Assembly: GCA_029834535.1 (NCBI GenBank)
Contig: JAQMWT010000017.1
Location: 1 to 64,000, forward strand
Direction: 5' to 3'
DNA: 64,000 nucleotides
Origin: Chrysophaeum taylorii
Taxonomy: Eukaryota; Sar; Pelagophyceae; Pelagomonadales; Pelagomonadaceae
Shown: in pieces, positions 26,482-45,608 of the stretch
Layout: the number at the start of each line of letters is the position of its first letter
Numbering within the stretch: the first letter of the stretch is position 1
Position numbers and translations under genes: made by a program
Notes under the pieces: model-generated
The model's input: the letters and a program-made list of their open reading frames with translations, nothing else
The model's database searches: none
What the model was told of the DNA's origin: nothing

Positions 26482-26816
26482 TGTGGCGTTGGGAGAAATT
26501 AGGCCTACCTCGCGAGCCTTCGAATCCTGGCTCGCCGCTCGCGTCCGTGCCCTTGATGGAGTCACTGGACGAGGAAGGCCGTTCTCTCGCCACAAAACCA
26601 CAAGCAACTTCCGTGCCTGGTCCTCGCAACTTGAGGGCCGGCTGTTGCTTTATGATTAAGATATTATCGAAACACAGAAATCAGGGTGACGCATGTCGCG
26701 GAAAAGGAAGATGATGTCATAAAGAAAACTGACATCATCATAGCGGAGTAGGGTGCCCTGATAAGGGGGGGCCCTAGAAGAGGGGTAAGCCTTACGAGGC
26801 GGGAGCTGCCGCCACG
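26482..26816 (-). repeat. 3' LTR of the gypsy element
   Basis: About 335 bp, matching 36,125-36,460. Element sense begins GTGGCGGCAGCTCCCGCC and ends CCAACGCCACA. A purine tract CCAGGGGAGTCC abuts its upstream edge, as a polypurine tract should. Confidence 0.85.
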
Positions 26817-26856
26817 GGACTCCCCTGGTAAGAATTCGAGCTGCCCCAGCGAGCTG

Positions 26857-27144
26857 CTAGCGCGAGGAGCGCGGCTTCGCCTTACGAGCATCTCGTGAAC
26901 GAATCTTCTTGTAAACGCGGGTGATGATCGGTTCGGGAACTCGACCACTGCGCAAAGTAAACTTGGGGATCAACACATCAATCTCGTGCGGAGCGATATC
27001 CGTGACACAAGGAGTTGTGTTGGATGAGATTCTGGACTTGTCGATGAAACTGCGACCTTCAACGCCCTTGAACTCGGGCTTGAGTTTGCGGCGCGAAAGG
27101 TGAGAGGTCGGCTTGAAATAAGCGACATCATCGTTCGGACCCAA
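26857..27144 (-). pseudogene. Gypsy pol C-terminal tail (fossil part)
   Basis: A 95-codon open piece between the SINE-like insertion and the 3' LTR, basic, ending RDARKAKPRSSR. Its position fits the tail of the integrase region. Confidence 0.5.
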
Positions 27145-27145
27145 C

Positions 27146-27548
27146 TAACTAACTAACTTCAGACCTCCCCCGAGCATGGGAGCCAGGCCGGACCGGCAGG
27201 AGCCGGTACGGTATCACAGAGGAAAATCACGCAGTTGGGGCAGAGGCGAGGGACGAGGACGGACTTGTTGATGGTGGACCGCCACTGCACGCGGTCTTGT
27301 GCGAGGTCGTGCGAAAGCGTCGTAGGCCGCGGACGTGTTGGTCCACGAACAATCGACCTGTCCGTCGCGTTCTGCCCAACCGAGCGAACCCCATCCCAGC
27401 GCGGACTTTCCGGGTGCTAACCGGCCAGCCCGGGAGGCGAGCAGGCACCGTCTCACTCCGGGACGGCCGGGGCCGCCGCAGGGAGCAAGCGTGTTAGGCG
27501 CCGTCCTCCATCGTAACCGCCGGTTAGCGATCGCAGGGTTAGGGTTAC
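27146..27548 (-). mobile_element. SINE-like unit with LINE-derived tail, copy 4
   Basis: About 400 bp. Element sense begins TAACCCTAACCCTGCGATCG and ends CTGAAGTTAGTTAGTTAGTT. It includes the LINE ORF2-end block QDRVQWRSTI and the shared GATGGAGGACGGCGCC head. A 4-bp duplication (TTGG) may flank it. It lies inside the gypsy integrase region. Confidence 0.7.
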
Positions 27549-28400
27549 CAAATCAGTGTAGAAATGTAGAGCAACACGATCATTTTGGTAATCGTAAGGC
27601 TCGTAAACTTCGGCAACATAAATCTTCTTGCGCCAATCAGAGCGCTTCCGGTCAGGAATCCGGAAAACAACAAACTTACCGTGCTGATAATCATCACGGA
27701 AGGTTTCTTCGGGTTTGCGGATGGTTTGATCAACGATCGGAGGTTCCATCACAGGCGTGATCTGACTAACATGAACACGTCGTTCTTCGGGCGGAGAGTC
27801 GAGAGACTCGATCCTATAGGTGACCGGGGAAAGGCGTTCCTTGATAATAAACGGTCCTCGCCATTCCGGTCGAAGTTTGTTCTGAAGGAAAGGAATGTAG
27901 AGCAAGACGCGCGATCCTTCCTTGTATTCAACATCGACATGATCGGCATTGTAGGCCAGTCGTTGTTTCTTCAAAGCTTTATCACGAGCCTCGCGGACGA
28001 TCTTCGTATAATACTTCAATCGCTCACGAGTTTCGGCGACTGCATCAGAGCGAGTCTTCGGCAACAATCGCGTATCAAAGTCCATAAGCGTGCAATCAGT
28101 CGGCAGCATCGGCTGACCGTTCAGGCGCAGCATAAAGGGAGAAATCTGCGTGCCTGGAATAAACTTGCGGTTGTAACAAAACGCATTATAATGAGCAAAG
28201 TCGGGCCAATCCGTGATGTTCCGGCCCTGAAGGCAAGCACGGAGGAAGGCCTTGATAAATCGGTATACACGCTCAGCGGGGTTCGACTGGGCATGATTGG
28301 GAATCGTAGTTTGGTGTCGTGTGTTGAAGAGATGGCAAAACTCGCGCATCAACTTGTTCACGAACTCTTTACCGTTGTCGGTACGAATCATCTGGGGCAA
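27453..28400 (-). pseudogene. Gypsy integrase core and GPY/F region (fossil part)
   Basis: Open piece with the retroviral integrase second and third acidic regions in context (RTDNGKEFVNKLM, then NHAQSNPAERVYRFIKAFL), followed by a GPY/F module (LRPEWRGPFIIKERLSPVTYRI). Typical of Ty3/gypsy integrase. The zinc-binding N-terminus is in the neighbouring piece 28,510-29,313. Confidence 0.8.
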
Positions 28401-28509
28401 GTAGAGCCCTTGAGGAGGATGTTAATGACAAATGGCTCCTGAATGGATTCAGCAGTCTTGTCGTTCAAAACATCAAAAATCAAGAAGTGCGAGAACGGAT
28501 CAAAGAATA

Positions 28510-29313
28510 CTAGAAGATACGTCTCGGGACCAGCGCTGGACAGTGGTCCAAATAAATCCATGCATAGAACAGCGTCATCACCATCGTAGATAGGCTGTTG
28601 CAAGAGTCCAGCTCGTTCGGCTCAGGCGTACGAGCATTCTGGCAAACTAAACATTCAGCAACGAAGACTCCGACTTCGTTCGACGTGTGGGGCCACCAAA
28701 ATCGTTCTTGGATAGCCTGGACAGTACTGTGACGTCCCATAAGACCACCGTTAACCGGAGTGTCATGGTAGAGTCGAATAATGCGCCTGCGCAACGTAGC
28801 AGGGGCAACAATCATCGGGTGCAAATCTGCAGATGTGCGGTAAAGAATGTCTTTAACAACTTCGCATCGTTCGCTCGCTCGGGAACGTCGCGGCGTCTGA
28901 CCTTGGGCCATTCGGTAGCGAATATCCTCGCAAGTAGCATCAGATTCTTGCTCACGTGCGATTTCGGCGAGGGTCATATTATCGGGTATCTTATCGATAT
29001 AATCTTTGTAAGCGGCTGCGTCCTTGAAGACCTGTGGCTCATCGCGCGCACGGTTCTTCCGACGTTGTCTCGTAGCGTGAGACGTAGCCAATCTCATCGG
29101 ATCCTTTTCAGGATCTTCTTCCTCGTCTTCCGGCAGTTCGGTCGTAACAAACGACATTATGAAGTGGCAGCCGGAGGCGGGAATTCCTCGGTCATCAACA
29201 GGCCGGGGAAGCTCTTGGAACACCAAATAAGCGTGGTTCAAAGGTTCTCCAAACTCGTCAGTCTCGATGACATGATCTATCGGATTGCGGGAGAGACAGT
29301 CAGGGATACTCAT
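28510..29313 (-). pseudogene. Gypsy RNase H-integrase junction and integrase zinc finger (fossil part)
   Basis: Begins SIPDCLSRNPID, the usual 'ADxLSR' end of the gypsy RNase H region. After a charged linker it has the HHCC integrase finger in order: LYHDTP--GGLMGRHST-x-QAIQERFWWPH and CLVCQ. Confidence 0.8.
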
Positions 29314-29406
29314 TCCCGTGACTTTCCCGGCTTGTAACCAAGTTCAGGGTCAAAATTGGCGAGGCGCATCGCCCAACGAGCAAGCTGCCCAGACGAGTGC
29401 GTCGCC

Positions 29407-29740
29407 TTACGTAAAAACGTCAAGTTTCGGTGATCGGTCTCCAAAACAGTCCGGTGCCCTTCGATGTAGGTAGGCTCGAAAGTGCTCTAGAGAAAGGATA
29501 ACTGCCAACAGCTCCAGCCGACGGGGCTCATAATTGCGCATCTCCTTCGGCACAGCTCGGCTCCAGTATTCAACCACTCGTTCTTCTCGAGTCACTCTCC
29601 CGGCATCGTCCTTGACTTCGACAATCTGGAAGAGGTATGCTCCAAGTCCATCCTTGGAAGCATCGGATCGGATCTGAAAAGGCAGATCACAATCGGGGTG
29701 GTAGACTCCTCGGGAATCAACCAAACAAGGTTGATGCCGT
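29407..29740 (-). pseudogene. Gypsy RNase H (fossil part)
   Basis: Reads 'CDLPFQIRSDASKDGLGAYLFQ', then 'VVEYWSRAVPKEMRNYEPRRLELLAVILSLEHFRAYLH'. These are the RNase H 'DAS-x-x-GxGAxLxQ', 'SR-x-L--E-x-NY' and 'ExLAVVxAxxxFRxYL' blocks of gypsy elements. Confidence 0.8.
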
Positions 29741-29744
29741 GCTC

Positions 29745-30235
29745 GACCCTGTAGGGAGTAGTGATGTGTTGGCTGAAGGACGGGCGGAACGCGTCGGAGT
29801 ATACTGTGCGTAGATGCACTTTGAGTTGTGTCTTGCAAAAGGCATGTAAGTAATCTAGTGCTTGCGTAAATTCGGTCGCGTTGGTAGTGCGCGTAAAATA
29901 GGCTAGTAGGAACTTTGATAGCAGTTCTTTGAAGACAACAATGTGGGTGAAGCCGCCCCACTCAGAAGGAAAGGTGACGTAGCCACCATCGCAAGCCCCG
30001 ACTTCACCTGGCCGGTGGGTCTGTTCAAAGCTCGGCTTGGTCTCGTTCTCTTGGTCGTGACGGTGGCGCTTGTTGCGGCAAATGCAGTCAATGCACATAT
30101 CTCTGTAGGGAATATCGGATGCTGAGAAGCCAGGGCGAGCAATGACGTCAGGGGCTATGGCAGCAACGTTGTCAGGGCAGTGGTGTACATTGTGGAAGCG
30201 ATTGGCTCTTTGTTTGGCATTTTGGTATTCAACTG
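29745..30235 (-). mobile_element. Copia-type integrase fragment lodged in the gypsy pol gene
   Basis: Between gypsy RT and RNase H lies a piece reading 'HRPGEVGACDGGYVTFPSEWGGFTHIVVFKELLSKF', ending TTPYRVEHGIN. It is a divergent relative of the copia integrase at 9,047-9,934, and no LTR or target duplication accompanies it. How it arrived is unknown; template switching during reverse transcription is one possibility. Limits are approximate. Confidence 0.65.
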
Positions 30236-31182
30236 TACCATGGGCGAGCGTTTTGCGGGGAATTGCCTTGACAGAGATATGTCGCTTCGAGGCATAATCG
30301 TCTCGGCGGTTCCACGATCTTCGAGTAGCCCTTCACATATCGCCGCCAATAATTACTCATGCCGATGAAAGAGCGTATCTGGGTCTTCGGCGAAGTATTC
30401 GGCAAAGTACCTGGAATCGGCATCTTCTGCAGTGCTTCCAGCGTCTTCGGATTCGGCTTCAAGCCTTCTGGGGTCGAAATGTGTCCCAGAAATTCTATAT
30501 CATCTTTGAGAAGGTGGAACTTCGCGGTTCGACCGCTGTACCCTCTCTGTGCCAAATGACACATCACTTCGATCAAAACTTGTAAATGTCGATGAAGATC
30601 GTCGGATCCCATCATAATATCGTCAACAAACGCAACCAAGTCTCGATACATCCATTTCGAAAGGTCGCTCGCCATTTGCTTGCAAAAAAAAGCTCCGGCC
30701 GTCTTCACACCTAGAGGTAATCGCAAGAAACTATGAGCGCCAAGTGGGCTAACCATCGTGACAGCGTCTTGCGCTGCCGGATACAGACGAAGGTTGTGGT
30801 ATCCCCGTCTAATATCAATGCATGTCCGCCATCGTCGCATGGCGAGAAAAGCTAAAGCATCATCTTGTCGAATGTTCGGCCAACTGTCATTGATCAATTG
30901 ATCGTTGAGCTGACGTAAGTCAACTGCAGCACGGAACGCGTTTGACGTTCCAATCTCAGCTCCTTTCTTCGGAAGCATCAACACAGGAAAGCCCCAAGGT
31001 GAGTTGGCCGGACGAATGACTCCATCCTGGCACCACTCGCTGATCTGCTTGCGGAGACAATCGAGCTTCGCAGGCGTCAATCGGTAGGGCGTCATCTTAA
31101 TCGGTCGCGGATTCGCGTCTCTGAATCGTAGAGACACAGGAGGCGAGTCCACAGGTCTCATAATCGGGTCGAAAAAGCCCAA
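30229..31182 (-). pseudogene. Gypsy reverse transcriptase (fossil part)
   Basis: An almost complete RT domain: MTPYRLTPAKLDCLRKQI, GVIRPANSPWGFPVLMLPKK, FRAAVDLRQLND, the FLRLPLGVKTAGAFF block, and the catalytic box as FVDDIM followed by HL-x-VL and FLGHISTPEGLKPNPKT. Clearly Ty3/gypsy in type. Confidence 0.9.
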
Positions 31183-31718
31183 GAATATTGCACACAGTGA
31201 CGGAGCATCAGTTTCGCATCGTCATCTAAGTGCGGATTGTCAGGAATCCCCAGCTCCTGGACAACCTTGTCGACTTCTTCCTTCGTAGGAGTTTTAACTT
31301 TCATTGCTTCGTTATCCTTGACATGCTCAGGAGTTTGTGGCAGCGGGGCACCCTCAGCATCGCGCGGCGCATCTTTCCATGGAACATCGAACTTCTTCTC
31401 ATATTTTAGTCTCACTTCCGGGTGGCTTTTGTTGATCCTCTCGCCTTTGACACGAACACTCGGCTCGCTCTTGATCTTCGGTTCCCGATCTCGCTCACGA
31501 TGTGGCGGAACGTCCAAATTTGGTTGTCGGGGGGGGGCAGCAGAAGAAGCGTGAGACGCCACCTGCTCATCTGTTACAGGCGGAATCAACGGTACATCTG
31601 GAGGTTTCCATTTGGTGCGATCTTGGAGATCATCAGTCGATACCCATCTTACGACACGTGTGCGCGTGTTTAACAGCGGAACTTGTACGTGACGACGGGT
31701 GGTTTCATCACTTTGCAC
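31158..31718 (-). pseudogene. Gypsy linker between methyltransferase-like and RT parts
   Basis: 186 codons, Pro- and charge-rich with no domain recognised (PPHRERDREPKIKSEPSV...). It ends in a short conserved-looking 'HLDDDAKLMLRHCVQYSWAFS', comparable to the segment that precedes gypsy RT domains ('L--LL-xYxDVFS'). Confidence 0.6.
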
Positions 31719-31882
31719 GGTCTGCAGGACTCAACGCGGACGGCAAAGCTTCGCCGCTCAAGTGAAAATCCTTGGTCACAGAGCTGTGCAGATCGAGTAC
31801 TAATAATGTCATTGTGTCTGGTGGCACGACGGACGCCAAGTGTTTCAACGAGGTCGTCCTGGAGAAGCCGGCCCAATCAAAA

Positions 31883-33778
31883 TCAAGGGGCATGGTCAGC
31901 AACTCCGAAGTCATTTTCAGATTCAGAGATCTGTAATCGGAACGGTGCGGTCCTACGCGAAGCGGGACGCGCGTAACGGTATAAGCTGCGTCTGTCGCTG
32001 CTCGTGATGATCCTAAATTGTTCATCTGAAGTAAATGTCGTTCGTCGGAGTAAATGTCGTTCGTCGGCGTAGCCAAGCGCGGCGGCGAACTCTTGCTGTA
32101 TATTCCTGCAAGTCATTGGAACTGCGCGCAAATGGAGCGGATGGCTGGAAACCAACAATCGCACGCGACAGCTCATCAAACTGGGCGTTGTGTCGTAAAA
32201 ATTGACGACGTACACGTAAGGGTGCAAACGTGCAACGTAAGAGATAATCGAGGCCTCCTGCTCCATCAACCACTTGAAGAAACCAGCCATCTTGCATAAT
32301 TTCATCGTCCAGTGGGTAGCGGTGACTCCCTTCCCAACATCTCTGGAAGTCAAGTTGCACAGAGCGGAGTGTACGCAGGGTGGCGACGCGATACACATCG
32401 ACGACGACCATTCCGCGTACGGTAAATAAGATTCGGTCAACCGTAAGGTTGTAACATAGCGACCACACAGTGTGTGCTGCACCACAGGAATATTCGGAAA
32501 ATTCGTGTGGTGGATCTGGTTGGCGGTGTCCGACGCATCGAGTGCTAGCACGACGCGAAACGACGTCCCACATATTTCGTTGGCTCGTTGGAGACCTAAA
32601 GTACTGCCTCCGGCTCCAATGAACAGCATCACTACCTTGCGACAAGTGATTGGAAGCCACTGAAACTTATCGTATCGGCGGCGGATCTCTGCTTCGGTGA
32701 TCTCGCGGCACTTCTTTTCATCTTCTTCCGACCTTCGAGCGAAATCGTCGTCGCTTTTGGGTCGTTTGAGGGAGGATTTGTCCACAGTAACGGCTGTAGC
32801 GTCCTTCTGCGCCGTGCTCAGCAACATCGGCGGGGGAGATTCTTCGCAACGCGTCAAATGACTAGCGACAGAAACGGTGAAAGAAAGGTTCCCCTTGTCG
32901 TGTCCTTCTTCACACTCTTTCGTAAGTTCGTTGATCGTATAAACGTTCAGCTCATCTTCGTACCGAACGATGTCGCCAATCGCGAGAACCTCGCCTTGAG
33001 TGACGACCGTAGGCACTTCTTCCGCGGAAGTAACGGCAACACGAGCAGCGGGCCGGTCGTGCTCTTCGCAAGAAGAACACATTCCTTCGACAACTCCCAA
33101 CTGCTCGTTTTCAGCAAACGTAGCGACGAAAACCTGTCCCATTTCCATAGGTTTCGACAAAATAACCGGTAGATTGTAAGTTCGACCGGGCTCGATTTGA
33201 AGCGCGCGCGCAGCGTAAGCAACTACTTCTCGCGCGGCTTCTCCCGGAGCTGGGGAGAATTTGGTCGTAGCATGTCCCCGCGTAGCCAAGGCTACCGTTC
33301 GTTCCGGCGGCGGGCTGCGGATATATTTAATCGTGCTCAAACGAGCGTAAACTCGAGTCTTGACTAGGTCGAGACTCTTCCGAAAGGCATCGTGTTGATG
33401 ATTGTAAATCGGCACGGTTATCGGGTCTCGATCGAAAATAGATCGAAAGGTCACGATGGGTGCGTCGACTCGTTCATCCTTGACTTTGATCTTCTTGCGC
33501 CCGTAGACGACTTGGGTTCGATAAAAACAGATCCGATCGGGGGGGTAGTCCACGACGGCTCCTAAAACTCGGATATCGCCCCCTCCCAACAGGAACAGAT
33601 AGATTGTACCGGCCACAATAGCGACAATGGGGGCGGCGATGTTGTCGGCGAGAGCGACCCGGATCGCGATCCAACGATAGATCGTCGTCGTATTCAACCC
33701 CGATCCGTACAGCTTGCGCTTAATTGGAAGCTCGCGTTCGTCGAAAATCAACTTGTCTTTGGCCAACTTTCTGACCAT
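31883..33778 (-). CDS. Long open frame with C5-cytosine DNA methyltransferase-like domain, inside the gypsy element
   Basis: 631 codons from an ATG. Residues ~190-290 look like the tail that follows gypsy proteases (LPVILSKPMEMGQVFVATF, then a 'TQGEVLAIGDIV' strand). A charged linker follows. From residue ~385: VMLFIGAGGSTLGLQRAN, the SAM-binding F-x-GxGG motif; VVLALDASDTANQIHHTNFP, the acidic motif II region with the usual following N-F-P; and IASPPCVHSALCNLTS, the PC catalytic-loop context. All three are in the order and spacing of C5-MTases. The target-recognition region is not recognisable. The ordinary role of such enzymes is 5-methylcytosine formation in DNA; in an element it could mark or protect copies. 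Activity is not claimed; the element as a whole is broken. It is not a free host gene, because protease and RT lie directly on either side on the same strand. Confidence 0.75.
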   Translation of the reverse strand: MVRKLAKDKLIFDERELPIKRKLYGSGLNTTTIYRWIAIRVALADNIAAPIVAIVAGTIYLFLLGGGDIRVLGAVVDYPPDRICFYRTQVVYGRKKIKVKDERVDAPIVTFRSIFDRDPITVPIYNHQHDAFRKSLDLVKTRVYARLSTIKYIRSPPPERTVALATRGHATTKFSPAPGEAAREVVAYAARALQIEPGRTYNLPVILSKPMEMGQVFVATFAENEQLGVVEGMCSSCEEHDRPAARVAVTSAEEVPTVVTQGEVLAIGDIVRYEDELNVYTINELTKECEEGHDKGNLSFTVSVASHLTRCEESPPPMLLSTAQKDATAVTVDKSSLKRPKSDDDFARRSEEDEKKCREITEAEIRRRYDKFQWLPITCRKVVMLFIGAGGSTLGLQRANEICGTSFRVVLALDASDTANQIHHTNFPNIPVVQHTLCGRYVTTLRLTESYLPYAEWSSSMCIASPPCVHSALCNLTSRDVGKGVTATHWTMKLCKMAGFFKWLMEQEASIISYVARLHPYVYVVNFYDTTPSLMSCRVRLLVSSHPLHLRAVPMTCRNIQQEFAAALGYADERHLLRRTTFTSDEQFRIITSSDRRSLYRYARPASRRTAPFRLQISESENDFGVADHAP

Positions 33779-34321
33779 TTATCGGCAAATATAAGAAACA
33801 TCTGCCATTCCATCGACACCGATGGTCGTCGAGAATTTCCGTCCGTCACGATTCCTGTAAATGCGACGGGCCATAAACGTAAGAGTACCCGTATCCAAAC
33901 AACTCAGGGTAACCAAATCATATTGGATCGTCTTAATATCTCGCGGAGTCAACGCAGTGTGAGCACATTGGGCTCTGACTCGCTCATCGCCGGGGTTGGG
34001 CATCGATACCGCGGCTTGAGCTCTCATATCATCTGTTGTCGGCTTCATCGACGCAGCGCTCGCGGCAGCCTCTTTATCTGGCGGCTTCCGCTCTTCCTCC
34101 ATGACGATCTCGGAGGGAATCAGTGCTGGTAGGTGATCCCGATCTTCGTTGTTCTCGGAAGCAAAGGACCTCTCCCATAACTCATTCATTTCGTCGTTCC
34201 AGAATGCATCCGTAGATTCATTCATCATCGATTGATCATCACCATCATCGGCGATCGGTTCCGTGTCGGCTGCGGCTTCGAGTCCGTAGCTGAGCAGTCG
34301 TTCTGGTGGCTTCTTGAGCAA
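33779..34321 (-). pseudogene. Gypsy aspartic protease region (fossil part)
   Basis: Acidic N-terminal half, then 'TLSCLDTGTLTFMARRIYRNRDG' and 'TTIGVDGMADVSYIC'. The DTG motif after two hydrophobic residues marks a retropepsin. It abuts the methyltransferase-like frame. Confidence 0.65.
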
Positions 34322-34412
34322 GAAGATCCGAGTTTTCGTCCACCAATCCTGCAGGTTCCACGTCGGCTCGTCTGCGTCCCAATCGAGAACGCTGCTAATC
34401 TTCTTCTTAAAT

Positions 34413-35115
34413 CTATCCTATTCTTCCGGCGGCGTGTCCGTGGCTGCGCAGGCTCACTGGCAGCAGGTACCGCAGCTTTTCCATGCTAATATGGTCTTCG
34501 GCTAGCGTACTCATCACTGCGCCCGCATCTAAATCGAACTGGTCCTGATCGCGCCCATCAAGAACCAATTTAAACGTTTCGGTCTTTAATCCGGAGGTCG
34601 GTCGCCGATCCTTGCTGCGATCGTGTTTGGCTAGCGCGCTGGCGAACCGGTCTGTGGAGTCTATGAGGAACTTCTGGTTGTCGATTCTTCCGTCGTCACG
34701 CGTCTCCTCCTTTTCTTCGTAATCGTCGTCTTCATAGCGCGGCTTCCTGGCTTTCGCGCGTGATCGTGTAGTTGGCGGCTCTTCCTCGGGTCGGGATCCC
34801 GGGCTGCTCTCGATCGACTCGGCGTACGTAGCTCGTCCCTTTCTCGGGTCATGAATTTGCTTGATCTTGGAGGTCATCTGCTCGAGCGTTGGCCTTCCGC
34901 ACTTGCTCTCGTAATTCTTCTGCCTCCTTCCGCTGTAGCCGCTCCTTTCGATTGCTTTCTTCCTCGATTTGCTGTAAAAGTCGCTCCTGCGAGCGTTCGT
35001 TTTCTTCCCGTAACGCACGTTGATGGGCTTCGTAGAACTCATTCATTCTCGTTATATCCGGGGTTCGTGCACGCGTTGACGGGGCTGTCGGTCGTCCTTC
35101 CGGCGGTCCTTCCAC
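34413..35115 (-). pseudogene. Gypsy gag-like region (fossil part)
   Basis: Two overlapping pieces: one coiled-coil-like (EENERSQERLLQQIEEESNR...), the other basic with an SRAKARKPRYEDDDYEEKEE stretch and a helical end (FKLVLDGRDQDQFDLDAGAVMS). No CCHC knuckle seen. Position upstream of protease gives the call. Confidence 0.5.
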
Positions 35116-35736
35116 CGGTTCGCCATTGTTTTTTTCTAGCTCTTCTTCCTCGTTGTCAACTTCGGTAGCGTGCTCTTCGTCATCATTATCATCATCTTAT
35201 TAATCATTCCTCTCGCTCGTCTCATCCTGACGGCTTGGCGGTTCGTCGTATCGAATCTGCTCGTCAGCAGCATCATCGTCTTCCATATCGGCTCTGGCTC
35301 GTTCTAATCGGCCGAGATCAGAGCGGGTCCAAAATGGCTGAGTCGTCGTCGTTCTCGTGCTCCTTCGACTCTGGGACTTCTAATCGTCCACGACACGCGT
35401 AATATCGTCGTCGCGTGCGTCTTCCACCGACCGATCTATCAGTCCGGTGGGCGGCAGAATTCGTCTCTGCCCGGCAATCAATGCCTCAGTGAGTTGCGAT
35501 CTCACTCCGTTCGCCTGCGGCAGCGGTACCCGGGTTGCGCGTCGGCTAGAACCGAATCGCGCGTCGTCACCTCCGACGACAAAGGTATCCGGCCCGGGAA
35601 CTTTCCCACGCCGATGGTCCTTCTGGAACTCTTCGTCGGCGCGCTTGATCAGGGCGCGCACGGCTTGTCCGGACCGTGTAGAGAATGCAAGATGCACTCG
35701 TCCGCTGCGACCGATATGGTCGCTCGAATCTCGTAT
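35116..35736 (-). other. Gypsy leader / start of gag
   Basis: Between the first clear gag-like start and the SINE-like insertion. Short open pieces only, acidic and Arg-rich. Probably 5' leader plus decayed gag start. Confidence 0.4.
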
Positions 35737-36101
35737 ATCCCTTACCCTGATCGCCGACTGCGGTTGCGATGGAGGACGGTGCCTCATGAATCCTGAGCCT
35801 TGCGAGGGCATCCGCCCTCCCGGCGTAGGTTGGCACCTATTCGCCTCCCGGGCGGGCCGGTTGGCAGCCGGAACGTTCGCAGTGGGACGGGGTATGGCCG
35901 GGGGGCGAAGACGGAAGGTTATCGACGAGTTGGTTCTCAGTCACATCGCGGTCTCCTCGTCGCATGGCGACAAGCTTGATGGTCACTCTCCGCCGACCGA
36001 CCTTTCGGCGCTCCTCGTCTACAGGCCCGTGATTCCGGACTGGCTCCTGTCGGTCCGGCCTGGCTCCCATGCTCGGGAGAGGTCTGAAGTTAGTTAAGTT
36101 G
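35737..36101 (+). mobile_element. SINE-like unit with LINE-derived tail, copy 5 (with TSD)
   Basis: 365 bp with an 11-bp target duplication GAATCTCGTAT at 35,726-35,736 and 36,102-36,112. It begins ATCCCTTACCCTGATCGCC and ends GAAGTTAGTTAAGTTG. It landed in the tRNA-complementary primer-binding region of the gypsy element, between the 5' LTR and gag. The duplication fixes both ends exactly, so this copy defines the unit. Confidence 0.85.
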
Positions 36102-36112
36102 GAATCTCGTAT

Positions 36113-36124
36113 TCCTCCACCACA
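36113..36124 (-). promoter_or_regulatory. Gypsy primer-binding site (next to 5' LTR)
   Basis: Directly inside the LTR; element sense begins TGTGGTGGAGGAA. The plus strand reads like a tRNA 3' end: TCGAATC (T-loop-like) left of the SINE-like insertion and CCTCCACCA right of it. This fits tRNA priming of minus-strand synthesis; the tRNA identity is not assigned. Confidence 0.6.
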
Positions 36125-36460
36125 TGTGGCGTTAGGAGAAATTAGGCCTACCTGGCGAGCCTTCGAATCCTGGCTCGCCGCTCGCGTCCGTGCCCTTGAT
36201 GGAGTCACTGGACGAGGAAGGCCGTTCTCTCGCCACACAACCACAAACAACTTCCGTGCCTGGTCCTCACAACTTGAGGATCGGCTGTTGCTTTATGATT
36301 AAGATATTATCGAAACACAGAAATCAGGGTGACGCATGTCACGGAAAAGGAAGATGATGTCATAAAGAAAACTGACATCATCATAACGGAGTAGGGTGCC
36401 CCTGATAAGGGGGGGGGCTAGAAGAGGGGTAAGGCTCAGGAGGCGGGAGTTGCCGCCACA
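36125..36460 (-). repeat. 5' LTR of the gypsy element
   Basis: 336 bp with inverted ends (TGTGGCGGC... and ...AACGCCACA in element sense) and TG...CA termini. Confidence 0.87.
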
Positions 36461-36479: not shown

Positions 36480-37985
36480 ACGGCACGGGCGCCAAACAAA
36501 ACAATACGAAGCGAATCGTGGACGCGTTTCTGGCGGGAAAAAGGAATGCCGTCTTGGGGTTCGTTGGACGAGGCGACGGCCTGCAGTAGAGAGCTGTGCC
36601 ATGAGCTCGACCACTATCTGGTCAACGTGTACAAGTCCGAGGGGCGCGTGAACAGGGGCAAGGTTCCGCCGCATGGTCATCGACCTGCTCCAACTCGACA
36701 GCTCCAGTCCGGCCGAATTCCTGCGGGCTGGGTCGCTCTGGTCGATGACCGAGACCATCTTCGCGACTCTTGTCCTCTGGTACGAGCAGCGCGAGCGGGC
36801 GGGGCAGGCATCGTCGGTCATCACGAAGATGCGGGGCCATTACGACGCTGCCTTCTTTGGCGGAGTGGCAAATGCTCACGAGGTCCTTGTCGCCTGGAGC
36901 CGGGCGCTCCAAGCTCGCTTCAATTACGACAACCTCCATCTGACTTGGCGGTGGATCCCGGCCAACGCGCCGCCTCCTCCGTCGAAAGCGGGAATGGTGG
37001 AGCTTCGGGCGGAGGTGCGCGGACTGCGGTCGGAATTGCAGCAGCTACTAGCCCTCGCGCGACCCAGCCTCGGCATCATCGCCGCCCCAGCCACCCCGTC
37101 GCCTCCAGTCGCCGCCCCGTCGTCTGCTCCCTTCACTGCAGAAGAGGAGCTCGACCCTCTGCCGCCCTTTGTGAGTCTGTGGCAAGTACCTGAGGCTCCG
37201 TCACCACCGCCGGGTGCTTCCTGCGACTTCGTCTCCGTCTCCTGCGTTGGGGCCAATTTCGTCCTCGATGCAGGGAGAAACCCCGGGGACAGCTATGACC
37301 TCGGCTGCGGCTGAGGCTTCCGCTCCGGCGACGGCAAGGCCGCCCGTGTCTTCCTCTCCGTCTCGTGCATCAGCGCCGATTACTTCCGCAATGGTGTTGC
37401 AACCCCTGGTGCCAGCGGCGACTGCGCCCGCGACTGCGCCCGCGCCCGCGACTGCGCCCGCGCCCGCGACTGCGCCCGCGCCCGCGACTGCGCGCATCCT
37501 CCCGCCTTGCCGCGCCCAAGCTCGAGCTCCGACGCCGGTGGAGACGTTGAAAGGCATCGTCGCTATCGACTACTACCTCGATTTCAAGCGCCGAAAGAAC
37601 AGAGGCGTGCAGCTTTGGTTCTCGATTGGTTCGACAAGATAGCGACGGATGACGAGCGCATGAGCTCCGCGGAATCAACGGTGGAGCGCGGAGCACACCG
37701 CGCTCAAGTCGCTTTCCTCGGTCGACTCATTGTCGAGCGCCTCCAAGACGCCTTCTGCGCCTACCGCAAACACCACCCCAACTCCGGCTTCAAACCACCC
37801 AATACTCTCCTTTCCAATAACCTCGACCAGGAGTTCGGGATGAAACTGGATCTCGGACCGGCTAGACCAGCTCTACAAACTCAAGGACCCTCCTCACAAC
37901 TTGCGCATTGAGGCCACTCCCCAAAACTTCGCCGACCTTCGCGCGGCCTCCCGGTCGGAGAACGCCCGCGCAGCTAAAAGCAAAA
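36480..37985 (+). pseudogene. Unidentified coding family U, upstream part
   Basis: Open pieces on the plus strand: 'SWTRFWREKGMPSWGSLDEATA', 'ELDHYLVNVYKSEGRVNRGK', then 36,673-37,314 (WSMTETIFATLVLWYEQRERAGQ, GHYDAAFFGGVANAHEVLVAWS), a Pro/Ala tract and 'LDWFDKIATDDERMSSAES', ending 'YRKHHPNSGFKPPNTLLSNNLDQEFGM'. The helical, W/Y-rich first block resembles a DNA-binding helical bundle, but I cannot name a family. Frames shift more than once and a GCG-rich minisatellite interrupts it. The R element cuts its 3' end at GGACC (37,986-37,990). Confidence 0.4.
37424..37496. repeat. 18-bp GC-rich minisatellite
   Basis: Tandem units of GCGACTGCGCCCGCGCCC, about four copies, coding for an APAPAT-type repeat in the plus-strand frame. 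Confidence 0.85.
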
Positions 37986-37990
37986 GGACC

Positions 37991-38177
37991 TAGAGATAGA
38001 GAATTCCATTTAGGGTTAGCACCCTCCCCCCTTTAGTCTCACACTCACACCTAAACACCCCAAATCGTTGTGTCGAACACCGTGCCGCTCTTTGTGTCGT
38101 AAGAGGACAGGACGAGAAGAGTGGCCTACCCTGCCACCATTCTCTACCAGAGGCACAGTGATTTTTACTGTTCTCTA
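37991..38177 (+). repeat. 5' LTR of R copy 2
   Basis: 187 bp, TAGAGATAGAGAATTCC at the start and ACTGTTCTCTA at the end. Confidence 0.9.
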
Positions 38178-38397
38178 GGTTTGGACCCAGTCCGGTACTG
38201 GTAGAGAAACGTCCTCCGAAAGACATCGATCTCGATCGACGTCTCGGACAAAGACTCAGGATTTCCAGGTAAGAGCAATCTCCTGAAGTTCCTGAAAGTT
38301 CTAAGACCGTAGTCAAGTCTCATCGCTTGCTACTGGTGAACAAGTGTGAAAGTGTGAAAGCAACCAACACAAGCGCGCAAAACGCAACCCCAAAACG

Positions 38398-40197
38398 ATG
38401 GCGACTCACGACCCACAAGTCCCGAGTCTGGAAGTAGCGACGCAATTCGCTACACAACAAGCTCTCTGGCACCAGCTCCAAGCTAATTTGCAACAGCTCA
38501 AAGCTAATTTCTTAGATCAACTCGCCGCTGATAACGCTGCCTTAAAAGCCAAAATCGCCGCTGATTACGCTGATCTCAGAGCCAAAATCACTGCCGCAAT
38601 CGAAGCTCGAGACGAGCAACTTGATCAAGACGTGCAACTCGATCAAGACGAGCAGTTCGAACAAGCTTCTACAGGAGCTGTTCTTACGGCAACCCCCCTC
38701 AAGAAAAATGAAGTCGCGACCCAAGAACCGATCATATCGATGGTCACCCCCCCTCATGCCGACAACTCCGCCGGATGTCAAACACCCCACGGCAAAGTCT
38801 CAGACCCCACTGCCTTCCCTCCGGACCCAGGCACAGCCAAGGTTACTCCACAACCTGGCACACGCCACATTCACAAGGACACTCCTCCTTGTTCGAATAT
38901 CGCACCAGCAATATTGAACACTCCACCACCACCACCACTAAACATTACTCCCCTCACTCCACCAACCCCACCGGAGCCTCCGCCTCATTCACTGGAGCCT
39001 AACTCCCCACTATCGGCGACTCCCACTTCACCATCTATTCAAGTTCCCCAACATCCTCGTCAACCCCATCGCCGCACCACTCATCCCCTTCCTGACGATC
39101 ATGCCACCTACGGCCATGATGGCCCCGGCACCGTCATCCCTAACCAAGCCCCCACAGCGGCTCAAGCTCCTGCCGCCCCACCATCGGACTCTCCTGTCCG
39201 ATATCCATCATCTTCCGCAAGTCATTCTCCTCCAGACTTTCATCTCCACCCACAAGACCATGCCACCTACGGCCACGACGGCCCCGGCACTTCCATTCCT
39301 ACCCCAGCTCCTTCCGCGGCTCAAGCTACTGCCGCCCAACCATCGGACCATCCGGACCGACCATCACCTTTCGAAAGTTGCTGTCTCCCCGATTTTCATC
39401 TCCACCCGCGTGGCTACGCACTCCACAGTTACGACCATTCCTCCATCTCCACCCAAGCACAAACTCACCTCCTTTCTCAAAGTTCCAATGCACCTCCGTC
39501 TGCGCTCCAACGCGAGTTGGCCATCACTCAGGCTGCACTCCACCTCCAAACCGCTGACTTGGCCGCAACCAAGGCCATGCTCATTCGCAAGGACGACGCT
39601 TTGTCCTCCACAGCCGCCAAACTCACCATAACCGACGCCGCCCTTGCTTTCGCCACTGCCCAGCTCGCCATCCAAGCCGACGAACTGGTCTCCACCCACG
39701 CGGAACTCCATCTCACCCACACACAGTTCAAGGCGCTCGAAACTGCCCACGCTGACGTCCGCAACTCCCACTTTGAAACCAACGCCGTCCTCAACACCAT
39801 CCTTACCTCTCTGGATGCCACCCACCCCACCCAAGATGCTGCATCGCATCTTTTACCTCCTTTCCCCATCCACAACCTACCTTCATCCCCTTCTGAACCA
39901 ATCTCCAATACCTCTCTCCCGATTCTCCCCGAGTATCATCACCACCTCCACGGATGCCCCGGACCTGGTTCTCCTGGTTCACCACCCACTCCGACTCTCT
40001 GTTCTCAACCCCCCGCCATCTCTGGCCCCTCCTCCTCTGCCAAATCACTCTTCGCCTCTCTGGCACTCCCTGAACTCCTTTGCACCCGCCCGCCTTCTCA
40101 GCCATATGGTTCATCCCAACATTGGTCCTTGAGTGTGGTTGCCACAGTCGATGTAGGCATAATACTCGGGAACATCTCGAGGTGTCTTGTTCTTTGA
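38398..40197 (+). CDS. R-family ORF1: coiled-coil and Pro-rich protein (599 codons)
   Basis: Starts MATHDPQVPSLEVATQFATQ after a 220-bp leader. Residues ~20-75 are a coiled-coil-like stretch (LQQLKANFLDQLAADNAALK...). About 290 residues rich in P, T, S and H follow, with PPxP and 'YGHDGPGT' repeats. Residues ~365-475 form a second regular helical block (AAKLTITDAALAFATAQLAIQ...), then Pro-rich again. No enzyme motif. By place it could supply a gag-like structural function; this is conjecture. Three copies in the window keep the same two helical blocks. Confidence 0.55.
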   Translation: MATHDPQVPSLEVATQFATQQALWHQLQANLQQLKANFLDQLAADNAALKAKIAADYADLRAKITAAIEARDEQLDQDVQLDQDEQFEQASTGAVLTATPLKKNEVATQEPIISMVTPPHADNSAGCQTPHGKVSDPTAFPPDPGTAKVTPQPGTRHIHKDTPPCSNIAPAILNTPPPPPLNITPLTPPTPPEPPPHSLEPNSPLSATPTSPSIQVPQHPRQPHRRTTHPLPDDHATYGHDGPGTVIPNQAPTAAQAPAAPPSDSPVRYPSSSASHSPPDFHLHPQDHATYGHDGPGTSIPTPAPSAAQATAAQPSDHPDRPSPFESCCLPDFHLHPRGYALHSYDHSSISTQAQTHLLSQSSNAPPSALQRELAITQAALHLQTADLAATKAMLIRKDDALSSTAAKLTITDAALAFATAQLAIQADELVSTHAELHLTHTQFKALETAHADVRNSHFETNAVLNTILTSLDATHPTQDAASHLLPPFPIHNLPSSPSEPISNTSLPILPEYHHHLHGCPGPGSPGSPPTPTLCSQPPAISGPSSSAKSLFASLALPELLCTRPPSQPYGSSQHWSLSVVATVDVGIILGNISRCLVL

Positions 40198-40448
40198 CTT
40201 GTCGAAAGTGGGATCGAGGTGGCTTGGTGTTCCTTCGACAAGACTGCTTCCTGGGCCGTTGTGCCCGGAGAGAGAAGAAGCGCTTGTGCATGTCTTGGCA
40301 GCATGATGGTGAGCATGGTCATCAGGGAAAGGGCTGTCTTTTGATAATTCGGAATTTGCCGACTCTTGATGTTGGTGGTCTTATTTCTTGGTGGGACTTT
40401 GCACGTGGTGATCGTCGCTGGTGGTAGGGGTACGGTCGCCGGTGTTGG

Positions 40449-43400
40449 ATGTACGCCCTCGCAACTCGGACCCATGTCACAAGCCCGCACCTCCGAATGC
40501 CCTACACGCCTATGGGCAACCCTGGTCACTACGGCACTCACTGCTCTGGTCCCAGCATCTCCGCTATTGAGGATGCACCCAGCAGGACTGACCCTTACAT
40601 CGCCCTCGGTTCTACTGCACTCACCTTCGGCGACCTCTCTTTTCGAATTCCCGCACTGGACCCCAACCATTCCAGGCCGGATACTCTCCACCACGGGATC
40701 TCAGCTCACCCGCCCATCTGCCCTAACTTGCAGACAGGTCAGCCGCGAGCCACACTCCTTTTGGCACTGACTTCGGACCACCCGTATCACGCGCATTTGC
40801 TCTTGGAGCATGACACGTTTTTCGATGCTCTCCGCGTCACCGCCTCTAACACCACGACACTCGTCATTTCCACCGACACTCCGCGCCGCAACGTATCTCA
40901 CAACCTTCAGATCACCAACAAAAGTCGTTCGCGCCCGCACCACGTCGCGCACGCCTTACGAGGGTGTATTTCAATTGGTGACCTCACAGGTCTTTCGATG
41001 CATTTTCCGACGTCCGACTTTGAACTTACGAGTCACTTTATGGCAATCCCCAATGCCAAGACGTCTGAAGCTGCGCAATCATGTCCCTGGAACTCCAAAG
41101 CCACAGAAACTGCCAGACAAGAGAGCACTCAGCTCTCAACAGCTGCTCAACAGCTACTTATAGTCTCGCACATAGCCACGAGTACTATCTCGCAGTCTCT
41201 ATTGGACGACAAGACGAAAGATAAGACCTCAACGGCCAGCTACACCAGCCAGCTCATTGATGTAGTAGACGAAACAATGCAAACCAACTGCACCGTACGA
41301 CTCCAGACTATGCAGACGATGCTCAGGTCCAACGCTCAATTACTCGACCACGCACACGCTCTGTCACCTGACCTTGCACTGCTACTGGCTCCTATCTCAT
41401 TCATAGCTGATGCACTCCATCCGATGGACCAGTCCTTCAGATATGTCCCGCTCACAGAAGCACCACTACAGGACAAACAGGTACATCATGAAGATACAGG
41501 CAAACACACCACAATCACGCGCACAAGCTCATTGCGCCTATCCGATCACGACGAGACGAAGCTACAGCTCTGCTTGTTCCCTTCGCCTCTGGAAGACAAA
41601 GGCCGCCTTCCAGCCTCCCAGGCACCTGACCCGCCCCTGTCGCTGCAATCCGCATTAGCACAGACGATCTCGCCTCCCTGCACGACTGCAGATCAGGCAC
41701 AAGCAAATGTCGGTATTCTCCAGAGTTATGCGCACCCGCTGGAATCTTACCAGCACGGCTACCTCAGCCAGTCAGGTCACTGCACCACCTCGGTCTCCCC
41801 TGACACCAGGTCGACGCATCGCTCATTCGCGATCACCTCATATCACCTTTTGGACGAGTATGATCTCGAGCATAAACCCATCGCAACGCTTGAGTCATAC
41901 CCAAGAAGAAATCCTACTTCGGAGTCACCTCAGCCACTCCCACAGGAACTTTGGCCGCCAGACGCCACCCGTGTGCTCGTGGTTTCTCCATTGGTTTCCT
42001 CCAGAGCTTTTGACTGCAGCAGAGACAATATGCAACCTTCCCATGCGACTATAACCGCATTATCGTTTGGGACACTGGCATTTACTTCATGTCAGATGTT
42101 TACGCTCATAGTACCGCCACACACGGCAACCAAGATAGAAGTGGAATGCGTTCCACCCTCATCTCCGAGGGCTACCCCCGACATGCTGCCCCCGGCACAA
42201 CTAGCCAGTCCCATCACGTCTGATTCAGCTCCCATCGCCTTGTATGATGTCATACGTCATATTCCGATAAAAGCCCAGACACCGCACAGGCTCCTATGCA
42301 CTCGCGACGGCACGCTCACCGCCTCTCTCGGTTTAGACTACGAACATTGCGCCATACCCTTGGTACACTCACAGTCAACTGAGATGCTCGCTCGCTTGTC
42401 GCACAGTACGATTCCCGAACATCATTTGGTTCAGGATAAGCAGAACACTGTCGTCTCAGCCACCGCTGACGCGCCTCCTCCGACCGCCGCCCGGCTCTGC
42501 GCTCGTTCCGCAACCATGGTCTCTCCGTCTCACCGGCAATTCGAAGATTTCACCCAGTTCGAATTACGAGGGCGCATTAGTTTTCCGCCGACGACAAGAT
42601 TCGTTTCGATTCGCATCAGTCATGTCTCCTATGGCTACTCTGGCTATATCGGATCTCACTTCAAGGCACGTACCGAAGCCCCTCTTTCTAAGGACCTCTG
42701 TCACACGCCAAGACCTGATGAGCATTCGTCGTTCCTCCCCGCTTCAACGCGACTCCCGACGACCAAATCCCCGACGATTTGTGATGACACTAAGATCCGT
42801 CATCAATGCAATTCAGAGCCTCCCAACCTCTTCCATCAGTCTCTTGCAGGTCACACCTCTCAAGTTTCAGCTCGCTCGATTTTATCCTGCATGCTGCCGT
42901 ATGCAAACGAAGTTCTGTCACGTCAAAGCCACACGTCGCAGTTATCGCCAGTCTCGCGCAATAAACGCTCGCCACCAAATGATAGCCGCACGCAGAGTCC
43001 TTCGCTCACCTCTTTTAACGTCCCTCCCAGCACTATGCTTGACGTTGAAGTTCTGCACCACAATGGTTCGGTTACAACACAACTTCACGCGACATCCTCG
43101 CCCAGTTCTGACCATGTTTCGCATCTGTCGACTTTACTGTCAGAATACTGCTTCGGATATAGCCCCGACTACACTCGCGTATTACGCTCTTATGACGCAC
43201 CCAGTTGGCTCCTCTCCCTTCACACTGCAGGTTCCATCTTGCAGAACTCTGAGCCCAACAGCCACCATTGCGATTCGCACCCAGTCGACACTTTCCGTAG
43301 CACCCGCGAGGACAACCCCCAATCTCCACCTGTTGGACACGCGCTCTGCTCTCAGCATTCTACCGGATGTCACTGCCGCACACCGCTAGCCCCACCCAGT

Positions 43401-43997
43401 TGTGTTACGAATCAAGGGAAGTCAACTGCCATGCCTATCTCTTCCTTCATTCCCACACACTCGCTGCTAGCCACAGTCTCGCATGACTCATTGTCGGACA
43501 GTTCTCGCATTAAGGACATCACCTCACATCATGTTCATTCTTCGGACATCCCCCGTCCACAGACTAATCCTCTCTTGAAACATACGCTCCCAACACGTTG
43601 TATACTGTACAGCTCTTGCATCTCGACAACACCCTCCTGTCGAATGTCCCCCCTTTCCGTCACTGCACGATTCACCAGGGATGCACCACGCCCCCTCGCG
43701 TTTGTACATCAAGGGAAGTTTGATTCTGGTGAAAACGACTCCGGACATGTAATGAATACTGGATCAGTCGATTGTCACAGTTCAGGATTACTCTGCCGAA
43801 TAGAACACGAAAGATGCGACTTCGACCATACCTTCATAGTCAACTCTTCCCCAGGCAAGGACAATATCTTCAAGCAGTCCATCGCCTTCAGGCATTTTCT
43901 TCTGTTGCCCAGCTCTTCGACATTTTCTGCACAGGGCAACACTGACTATTCAGCACAGGACACGCGCCTGTATCCACCATCATACGTGATACACTAG
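40449..43997 (+). CDS. R-family ORF2: 1,182-codon low-complexity Ser/Thr/Pro/His protein
   Basis: Begins ATG (MYALATRTHVTSPHLRM...). The first ~230 residues match R copies 1 and 3, including HVAHALRGCISIGDLTGLSMH and FELTSHFMAIPNAKTSEAAQ. The rest is present only here in the window. It is rich in S, T, P, H and L with scattered single Cys, no transmembrane segment and no catalytic motif that I can see. Staying open for 3.5 kb despite low complexity suggests either past selection on the frame or a composition that avoids stops. Function unknown. Confidence 0.5.
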   Translation: MYALATRTHVTSPHLRMPYTPMGNPGHYGTHCSGPSISAIEDAPSRTDPYIALGSTALTFGDLSFRIPALDPNHSRPDTLHHGISAHPPICPNLQTGQPRATLLLALTSDHPYHAHLLLEHDTFFDALRVTASNTTTLVISTDTPRRNVSHNLQITNKSRSRPHHVAHALRGCISIGDLTGLSMHFPTSDFELTSHFMAIPNAKTSEAAQSCPWNSKATETARQESTQLSTAAQQLLIVSHIATSTISQSLLDDKTKDKTSTASYTSQLIDVVDETMQTNCTVRLQTMQTMLRSNAQLLDHAHALSPDLALLLAPISFIADALHPMDQSFRYVPLTEAPLQDKQVHHEDTGKHTTITRTSSLRLSDHDETKLQLCLFPSPLEDKGRLPASQAPDPPLSLQSALAQTISPPCTTADQAQANVGILQSYAHPLESYQHGYLSQSGHCTTSVSPDTRSTHRSFAITSYHLLDEYDLEHKPIATLESYPRRNPTSESPQPLPQELWPPDATRVLVVSPLVSSRAFDCSRDNMQPSHATITALSFGTLAFTSCQMFTLIVPPHTATKIEVECVPPSSPRATPDMLPPAQLASPITSDSAPIALYDVIRHIPIKAQTPHRLLCTRDGTLTASLGLDYEHCAIPLVHSQSTEMLARLSHSTIPEHHLVQDKQNTVVSATADAPPPTAARLCARSATMVSPSHRQFEDFTQFELRGRISFPPTTRFVSIRISHVSYGYSGYIGSHFKARTEAPLSKDLCHTPRPDEHSSFLPASTRLPTTKSPTICDDTKIRHQCNSEPPNLFHQSLAGHTSQVSARSILSCMLPYANEVLSRQSHTSQLSPVSRNKRSPPNDSRTQSPSLTSFNVPPSTMLDVEVLHHNGSVTTQLHATSSPSSDHVSHLSTLLSEYCFGYSPDYTRVLRSYDAPSWLLSLHTAGSILQNSEPNSHHCDSHPVDTFRSTREDNPQSPPVGHALCSQHSTGCHCRTPLAPPSCVTNQGKSTAMPISSFIPTHSLLATVSHDSLSDSSRIKDITSHHVHSSDIPRPQTNPLLKHTLPTRCILYSSCISTTPSCRMSPLSVTARFTRDAPRPLAFVHQGKFDSGENDSGHVMNTGSVDCHSSGLLCRIEHERCDFDHTFIVNSSPGKDNIFKQSIAFRHFLLLPSSSTFSAQGNTDYSAQDTRLYPPSYVIH

Positions 43998-45091
43998 CAA
44001 ACCTCAGTCCCAGCCCACTCATCTTTCGATGATAGCCACTGGCGACTTCCACTGGATCACAACTCCAAGTATACAGCAAATTTAGAGTTTTCATATCTAT
44101 GGCCACCCCCAGACACCTTTATCCCGATATCCTCATCGCGCTACGATTATCCTCATGTTATTCTAGACGCTCATAGTTTAGCTTCAGCTGTCCCACGCTA
44201 CACTCAGGACGACAGCTTCGACACGTATGTGACAGGCAGTTCTGGTTCCTCATCTCCCAGGAACAGCTCCGCCTTACTCGCTATCATTATGGCGATTACC
44301 TTACCATGTCGAAACCGATTTGGTTCAATGATCATATCTCTTCATGGCATAATGCTGCCACTCAGTCACATCGTCACACCTTTATTAGCCCAACATTAGT
44401 CACAATAGAATCTCATCCCTACGGCCACTCTCACTATTCGCCTTCCGATCAATTATTGGTCTGCTGCACAATTCCCGACTGCCGGTCCCATGATCCCTAC
44501 TGTTGTTGTCAGTTAGACCACCCGTTCTACTACGATGATCACCGAGTCACTTAGGATTTATCCATCCGCACGCACCGTCGTCTTACATCACGGAACACCC
44601 ACGACTTAATGCGTACAACTTTCGACTTCAACAATGACACTATTATACTCGCCTTTTCTTCGCAATATTGTCATTCCATCCTTCTTTCATCAGTCGCTGA
44701 ACAAGATGATGATCTGATCTCTCGTACAGAATTCGCCATACTTCGCCATTCGCCTACCTAGCATTTTTCTTCCTGTATCCTCTTAGCATCTTCCTCCACT
44801 TTTCTTCTTCCTCACGATCGATGCTTTTTCTTTTCCTTGATCATTCGCCTCTTCTTGCCGCATCCTTTTCATTCTGCTTCCCCTCTCAACCTATTCCACG
44901 TTCAACTTCGCGCGCTTTCTCCTTTCTCACTCACACTCCCCTGCTACTCCGCTCTACTCTATCTCTCTCATGCACTTCGCACACTTTTCCTTTCACGTCT
45001 CCTCACAACTCAACGTCTATTTGTCTCTGGCCAGACATTGGTTTTGTTTGTTCCAGATTCCGCTCATCACCGAGCTCAATCTGCGAGGGCG
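43998..45091 (+). other. R copy 2, 3' untranslated region
   Basis: About 1.1 kb between the ORF2 stop and the 3' LTR, pyrimidine-rich towards the end, with only short frames. Confidence 0.6.
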
Positions 45092-45278
45092 TGGAGATAG
45101 AAAATTCCATTTAGGGTTAGGACCCTCCCCCCTTTAGTCTCACACTCACACCTAAACACCCCAAATCGCGGTGTCGAACACCGTGCCGCTCTTTGTGTCG
45201 TAAGAGGACAGGACGAGAAGAGTGGCCTACCCTGCCACCATTCTCTACTAGAGGCACAGTGATTTTTGCTGTTCTCTA
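45092..45278 (+). repeat. 3' LTR of R copy 2
   Basis: 187 bp, directly followed by the target duplication GGACC. Confidence 0.9.
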
Positions 45279-45283
45279 GGACC

Positions 45284-45600: not shown

Positions 45601-45608
45601 CCGCCACC

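Follow-up and report, generated by a model that had tools for sequence, protein, structure and literature searches.

A Ty3/gypsy retrotransposon of the pelagophyte Chrysophaeum taylorii with a C5-cytosine-methyltransferase-like domain between protease and reverse transcriptase

Known methyltransferase-bearing retrotransposons and the element in the window

Retrotransposons that carry DNA methyltransferases have been known since 2018, with LINE elements, DIRS elements and one Gypsy element among the carriers (de Mendoza 2018, PMC5890265; here and below we rely on the available part of the text), and the preliminary description of the present locus mentioned such captures correctly. KnitGypsy-Dnmt3 of Klebsormidium nitens resembles the gypsy element of C. 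taylorii in that its Gypsy-type Pol includes a C5 methyltransferase domain, that this domain evolves under purifying selection and that its copies are intronless (PMC5890265). By contrast, the KnitGypsy domain groups with Dnmt3 and is reported to retain key residues (PMC5890265), whereas the domain of C. taylorii is far more diverged and no class can be assigned to it; moreover, the repeats of KnitGypsy are arranged as in DIRS (PMC5890265), while the LTRs of the C. taylorii element form a direct pair. SymbioDIRS-Dnmt3 and SymbioLINE-Dnmt of Symbiodinium are likewise retrotransposon C5 methyltransferases that are present in very many copies, old and conserved, but their carriers are of other classes, a tyrosine-recombinase DIRS and a LINE, and the SymbioLINE copies are CpG-depleted (PMC5890265), which the C. 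taylorii gypsy element is not. It is noted that a 2025 paper, with reference to the 2018 study, assigns some DNMT3 members to "LTR Copia and DIRS" elements (PMC12344493, available part), whereas the available text of the 2018 study says Gypsy and states that Symbiodinium Copia elements are without the domain (PMC5890265); by "Copia" the 2025 paper perhaps means the Gypsy element of K. nitens.

The genome of C. taylorii, a stramenopile alga of the pelagophytes, was published at 71 Mbp in 702 contigs in a paper where the words "transposable" and "retrotransposon" occur nowhere in the main text as available (PMC10366177), and in the literature searched, in the parts accessible, we found no report of DNMT-bearing retrotransposons in pelagophytes. 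The stretch analysed here, called the window, comprises bases 1-64000 of contig C17, and the genome searched comprises 70.8 Mb in 697 contigs. The comparison of sequences confirms that the minus-strand element at 26482-36460 belongs to the Ty3/gypsy LTR retrotransposons and carries, between protease and reverse transcriptase (RT), a C5-cytosine-methyltransferase-like domain; the Ty3/gypsy assignment rests on the LTR pair and the order of the Pfam domains rather than on an RT tree. Its features are the following.

26482-36460, minus strand: whole Ty3/gypsy element, a broken copy; LTR pair 95% identical, ends read
36125-36460, minus strand: 5' LTR (TG...CA), 336 bp
36103-36120, minus strand: probable primer-binding site, resembling the complement of the CCA-bearing 3' end of a tRNA
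35741-36101, no strand given: insert of about 361 bp of a short repeat, absent from the copy in L021/L028
34413-35337, minus strand: remnants of the gag region, some 1.6 kb less than the L021 copy has
33524-33832, minus strand: retropepsin-like stretch with D-G-M-A at the active-site position, assigned by reading; an in-frame stop splits it in the window copy
32639-33523, minus strand: stretch of about 295 aa between protease and methyltransferase-like domain, matching no Pfam family
31777-32638, minus strand: C5-methyltransferase-like domain, in two frames in the window copy
32582-32638, 32531-32557, 32333-32404, 32048-32116 and 31777-31935, minus strand: within this domain, motif I, motif II, the SPPC loop, the LGY region and possible motifs IX/X, respectively
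30283-31179, minus strand: reverse transcriptase (RVT_1, E 1.8e-12; 96% to L021 by tblastn)
29461-29727, minus strand: RNase H (PF17919, 3.4e-16; PF17917, 6.4e-15)
27786-28803, minus strand: integrase, with zinc-binding H2C2 part (28627-28803), part of the rve core and C-terminal part
27145-27547, no strand given: insert of about 403 bp of the same kind of short repeat, with a 97% match at 555775-556165 of contig C5
26482-26816, minus strand: 3' LTR, 335 bp

The element is flanked by GGCTC and GGGTC, with no perfect target-site duplication. A TGG... site of the primer-binding type follows the 5' LTR in the two copies read, with no tRNA matched to it; the 64-kb window holds no tRNA gene. The integrase is matched by PF17921 (9.5e-14), PF00665 (1.3e-5, under its cut-off) and PF22938 (1.5e-6), and the Pol order RT - RNase H - integrase is seen by Pfam both in the window and in the frame of L021. 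The gypsy RT that had been described downstream of the methyltransferase-like domain and inside one pair of LTRs is thus present, together with RNase H and integrase. The window copy is damaged by the stop in the protease-like stretch, by a break in the methyltransferase-like domain, by more frame breaks downstream, by the shortened gag and by the two repeat inserts. These inserts, about 360-400 bp each, lie in opposite orientations, and pieces of them are 74-92% alike.

The 631-aa frame at 31883-33778 on the minus strand, on which the preliminary description was based, reads as described, with KVVMLFIGAGG (32582-32638), RVVLALDAS...NFP (from 32557 down) and SSMCIASPPC (32333-32404) in that order. 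Its 5' limit is the in-frame stop inside the protease-like stretch and its 3' limit is the break inside the methyltransferase-like domain, the last third of which lies in another frame (31708-32112), and the frame is therefore a piece between two lesions and no gene. The protease was only partly as described: a protease-like stretch does lie upstream and, of the 15 copies that extend far enough (the window copy among them), only 12 have the DTG, but the part that reads as the active site is D-G-[ML]-A-D in all 15. The active-site pattern of retropepsins is usually D-[ST]-G. No Pfam match to a retropepsin was found, and at the active-site position, as assigned by reading, D-[ST]-G is absent and D-G-[ML]-A stands in 15 of 15 copies. 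Note also that, beside this position in the gypsy copies (33782-33832 in the window), residues ~81-90 of a copia frame of the same genome (L026, see below) read D-G-G-A.

Elsewhere in the window, a repeat-rich unit on the plus strand (37831-45459) holds frames of 615 and 1189 aa without Pfam match and has two blocks (90% and 97% identical) at both ends in opposite order; parts of it recur at 15934-17637, beside a copia-like fragment (16936-17611). Just past this unit is an array of a 12-bp tandem repeat (45572-45764), and a host gene for the 116-kDa subunit of the V-type ATPase lies in one open frame on the minus strand at 48061-50742 (PF01496, E 3.9e-249).

The gypsy domain and its copies

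The motifs are numbered, and their roles understood, as is usual for C5 methyltransferases (I, II, IV, VI with ENV, VIII with QxRxR, IX and X). The window copy by itself matches PF00145, the DNA_methylase profile against which a search had been proposed, at E 0.016 with 15.1 bits under the cut-off of 22 (residues 381-436), and two DNA-methyltransferase families of PHROG at 2.5e-5 and 0.0011. When the copies are taken together, with 5 of 32 excluded for a stop and E <= 1 accepted, PF00145 is matched by all 27 stop-free copies (best 1e-6), with L021 over the cut-off at 24.9 bits; the two PHROG families are also matched by 27 of 27 (best 7e-8), while NCBIfam TIGR00675 is matched at 0.0016 with 18.1 bits, far under its cut-off of 100.65. 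In the one member for which the range is given, the Pfam match spans motifs I-II only, and these two motifs are present in 27 of 27 copies.

For profile comparison by hhalign, the reference consisted of 66 C5 methyltransferases, namely 60 viral-contig loci (from 80, of which 20 were set aside without a fixed criterion, most of them partial or near-duplicate), 4 phage or bacterial enzymes and 2 host genes. From motif I to SPPC, the first profile gives 87% with none of 24 shuffles as good, and the two-subfamily profile, to which five subfamily-B copies were added, gives 90.7% (E 1.2e-6) with none of 40 column shuffles as good; the cysteine of the catalytic loop (motif IV, SPPC) is aligned and is invariant in 27 rows. 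These data and the matches to PF00145 bear out the C5-methyltransferase-like domain that had been proposed between protease and RT. Against a profile of 4 C5 sequences the gypsy domain gives 22.5%, and none of the 6 PDB sequences hit by an hmmsearch with the gypsy profile is a methyltransferase.

Beyond motif IV the sequence similarity is marginal. Shuffles as good are 7 of 40 for the whole remainder, 1 of 40 for VI-VIII and 2 of 40 for IX-X; in earlier runs two pieces had 0 of 24, a global comparison of VI-VIII had 22 of 60 and IX-X had 4 of 60. The possible motifs IX-X are colinear with those of C5 methyltransferases, but 2 of 40 and 4 of 60 shuffles reach their score. Motif VI ENV and motif VIII QxRxR are not recognisable in the gypsy domain, and the alignments disagree, with VNF, VSS or EQE at the position of ENV. 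Judged from its sequence, the domain appears too diverged after motif IV to be assigned to any of the subclasses Dnmt1/2/3/5/6.

A structure was predicted for the window's own broken fragment, folded with an alignment of 22 C5 methyltransferases, and has a mean pLDDT of 59.7 and a pTM of 0.57, with the blocks over motifs I-II averaging 80-88. The first three Foldseek matches in the PDB are DNMT2, DNMT2 and MET1 (E 1.2e-3 to 4.8e-3), followed from rank 4 by adenine and other methyltransferases, with no match below E 0.001. Since the alignment behind the model consisted of C5 enzymes, the model is biased and lends weak support.

At least 128 matches to the domain are found among the matches listed (1021 candidates, 128 scored), falling in two groups of ~86-100% and 79-83% identity, and at least 150 matches to the RT (1007 candidates), 92-100% identical among the matches listed; a search with the RNase H lists at least 150 of 628 candidates, some perhaps of other families. 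The preliminary description took copies lacking the domain at this position as a refutation; among the 10 best-scoring RT places, that of L021 itself included, domain sequence lies upstream in all 10, with L145 alone being without motifs I-IV, so that the proposal withstands this test in the sample examined. The copy at 544100-554379 of contig C5 has LTRs 98.2% identical, also a direct pair, and one open frame of 3063 aa, of which 2890 aa were scanned by Pfam and which holds all Pol domains, the methyltransferase-like domain with RT, RNase H and integrase.

The gypsy domain is under purifying selection. Among gypsy copies that are stop-free over 95% of the part compared, an exclusion of stop-bearing copies that lowers the ratios, the domain has a dN/dS of 0.21 (28 of 34 copies), close to the 0.19 of the RT (15 of 34), and the protease with its linker has 0.30 (32 of 34). 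Between the two subfamilies, L021 against five subfamily-B copies gives dN of 0.11-0.14 and dS of 1.8-2.1 in the 5 comparisons, so that dN/dS is ~0.07 there as compared with ~0.2 within.

It had also been proposed that the element may define a distinct lineage. Since the searches made find no relative of the gypsy domain outside this genome, the proposal is plausible within the limits of these searches: among proteins of similar total length there is none at E <= 0.01 for the gypsy domain (2972 candidates), nor for the copia domain considered below (4250). IMG/VR, searched with both domains, and GTDB contigs, searched with the gypsy domain, gave no relative either, and a viral or bacterial donor is therefore not supported.

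A second domain in a Ty1/copia element

A PF00145 search of the genome gives at least 57 matches (474 candidates, 123 scored), which are a Dnmt2-like gene (L001), a DNMT5-like gene (L002) and 55 others. The DNMT5-like gene (L002/L135, contig C621) encodes a C5 methyltransferase with SNF2 and is identical to CTAYLR_010750 over the 1408 aa searched. Eight of the 55 others were read (L003-L008, L025, L026) and have one common domain that is distinct from the gypsy one; the other 47 are judged alike from the matched range only. The type of the carrier was read in L026 alone (60000-69000 of contig C96), where a frame of 1952 aa has the methyltransferase, then a weak rve (0.0061) and then RVT_2, which is the Ty1/copia order. 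A direct repeat in L026, whose two units measure 208 and 196 bp and are 89% identical, may represent the LTRs of the copia element.

All 8 copies of this second domain that were read have PCQ and 7 of them ENV, and its dN/dS is 0.11 (8 copies, motifs I-VIII). A profile search of the PDB with it lists 9 sequences, all of them C5 methyltransferases (E 0.04-0.13), and hhalign against C5 methyltransferases gives 97% in an alignment that begins after motif I, with 0 of 40 shuffles as good; for the last part (206-360) 11 of 40 shuffles are as good and the similarity is not supported.

The copia element thus resembles the gypsy element of the same genome in carrying a C5 methyltransferase in Pol past a protease-like stretch, under purifying selection. 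Both domains sit between this stretch and the next Pol enzyme, with sequence without assignment after the protease. By contrast, in the copia element the integrase precedes the RT, PCQ and ENV are present, and the two domains compare at 0.2% in a profile comparison, with no detectable similarity. Because of this value, two captures are likelier than one, and a single capture shared by the two domains is not supported. A scenario that we put forward tentatively is that in one genome a Ty3/gypsy and a Ty1/copia element each captured an unrelated C5-methyltransferase domain between protease and next Pol enzyme. The copia domain would have kept PCQ and ENV, while the gypsy domain would have become a pseudo-methyltransferase, with the S-adenosylmethionine (SAM) site and the loop cysteine kept, ENV and QxRxR lost, and preservation by selection up to the saturation of synonymous sites, its fold having turned into a structural or targeting part of the polyprotein.

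What the gypsy domain may do

The preliminary description suggested that the domain methylates element copies, hiding them or steering host silencing. A footprint of decay at CpG was looked for in the copies and did not clearly emerge. For CpG, the window element has an observed/expected ratio of 1.25 and the loci of three further copies have 1.24-1.32, as compared with 1.00 and 1.06 in the window flanks and 1.26 and 1.46 in two host genes. In 32 aligned gypsy copies, stop-bearing ones included, the C-to-T rate is 0.024 at CpG, 0.032 at CpT, 0.013 at CpA, 0.010 at CpC and 0.014 at GpC, and the G-to-A rate is 0.023 at CpG, 0.033 at ApG, 0.020 at TpG and 0.021 at GpG. With 0.024 at CpG versus 0.018 at other C there is a mild excess on that strand, and the rate of A-to-G/T-to-C, 0.022, is near that of C-to-T at CpG; with both directions summed, the values are 0.0234 at CpG versus 0.0214 elsewhere. 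The 32 copies thus show no depletion of CpG and at most a mild excess of change there. Because, moreover, the match after motif IV is marginal and ENV and QxRxR are unrecognisable, the suggestion is unsupported. Note that brief methylation may be compatible with these data, since CpG depletion would not then be expected.

What is established is the domain order, the presence of the domain in the sampled copies, the similarity to C5 methyltransferases from motif I to SPPC and the purifying selection. Based on these, we consider it highly probable that C. taylorii has a gypsy family of the order Gag - protease-like - C5-methyltransferase-like - RT - RNase H - integrase whose domain would act in the particle, with a role in binding or assembly, or an altered catalysis, at least as likely as CG methylation because the later motifs are unrecognisable and the copies are not CpG-depleted. 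In this mechanism the element's protease would release the domain along with the Pol proteins, the domain would ride in the particle with RT and integrase, and it would bind SAM as well as nucleic acid of the element, either ahead of integration or at that step.

As to what the domain does there, several readings can be weighed. A possible one, which we hold with reserve, is that it would be a non-catalytic pseudo-methyltransferase, retained in Pol because it binds SAM or nucleic acid, as a scaffold or in contact with the target site or the host DNMT; DNMT3L follows a comparable logic. The conserved SAM site together with the unrecognisable motifs VI and VIII, and the dN/dS of ~0.07 between subfamilies, are consistent with such a part, but a pure scaffold has no need of the invariant SPPC cysteine, and the motifs could exist while being too diverged to align.

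It is somewhat unlikely that the domain is a working C5 DNA methyltransferase which, prior to integration, methylates the cDNA of its own element, the role proposed for SymbioDIRS-Dnmt3. In favour are the conservation of motif I and SPPC, the strong selection, the DNMT5-like gene of the host, and a C-to-T rate at CpG that mildly exceeds those at other C and at GpC; moreover, the SymbioDIRS enzymes methylated CG in yeast, but those of KnitGypsy and SymbioLINE produced none in that assay, a result described by the authors as inconclusive (PMC5890265). Also against a working enzyme are the unrecognisable ENV and QxRxR, the CpG ratios of the four loci being above those of the flanks, and the C-to-T rate at CpG being below that at CpT and near that of A-to-G/T-to-C.

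Methylation of RNA rather than DNA, with the element genome or the primer tRNA as substrate, would agree with the little or no footprint of decay in DNA and with DNMT2 being the first PDB match of the model, weak as the model is. DNMT2 methylates tRNA. However, DNMT2 keeps ENV, as does the host's Dnmt2-like gene (L001), and nothing points to RNA directly, so that we regard this reading as improbable. Finally, that an ordinary gypsy spacer has GAGG and SPPC by chance is very hard to believe, for although by itself the window copy falls short of the Pfam cut-off, all 27 copies match PF00145 and the two PHROG families, none of 40 shuffles reaches the profile score, and the dN/dS of the domain is close to that of the RT.

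With the host class, the direct-LTR gypsy element with the domain between protease and RT, the divergence of this domain and the second capture in a copia element being new here, the capture of DNMTs by retrotransposons is, as far as our searches show, extended to stramenopiles. Moreover, since unrelated gypsy and copia domains are present in one genome, the question of why retrotransposons want a methyltransferase becomes a comparative one, with an internal pair. In addition, because the host, which possesses a DNMT5-like gene, has already been cultured in the laboratory and sequenced, the methylation of new versus old copies is directly measurable.
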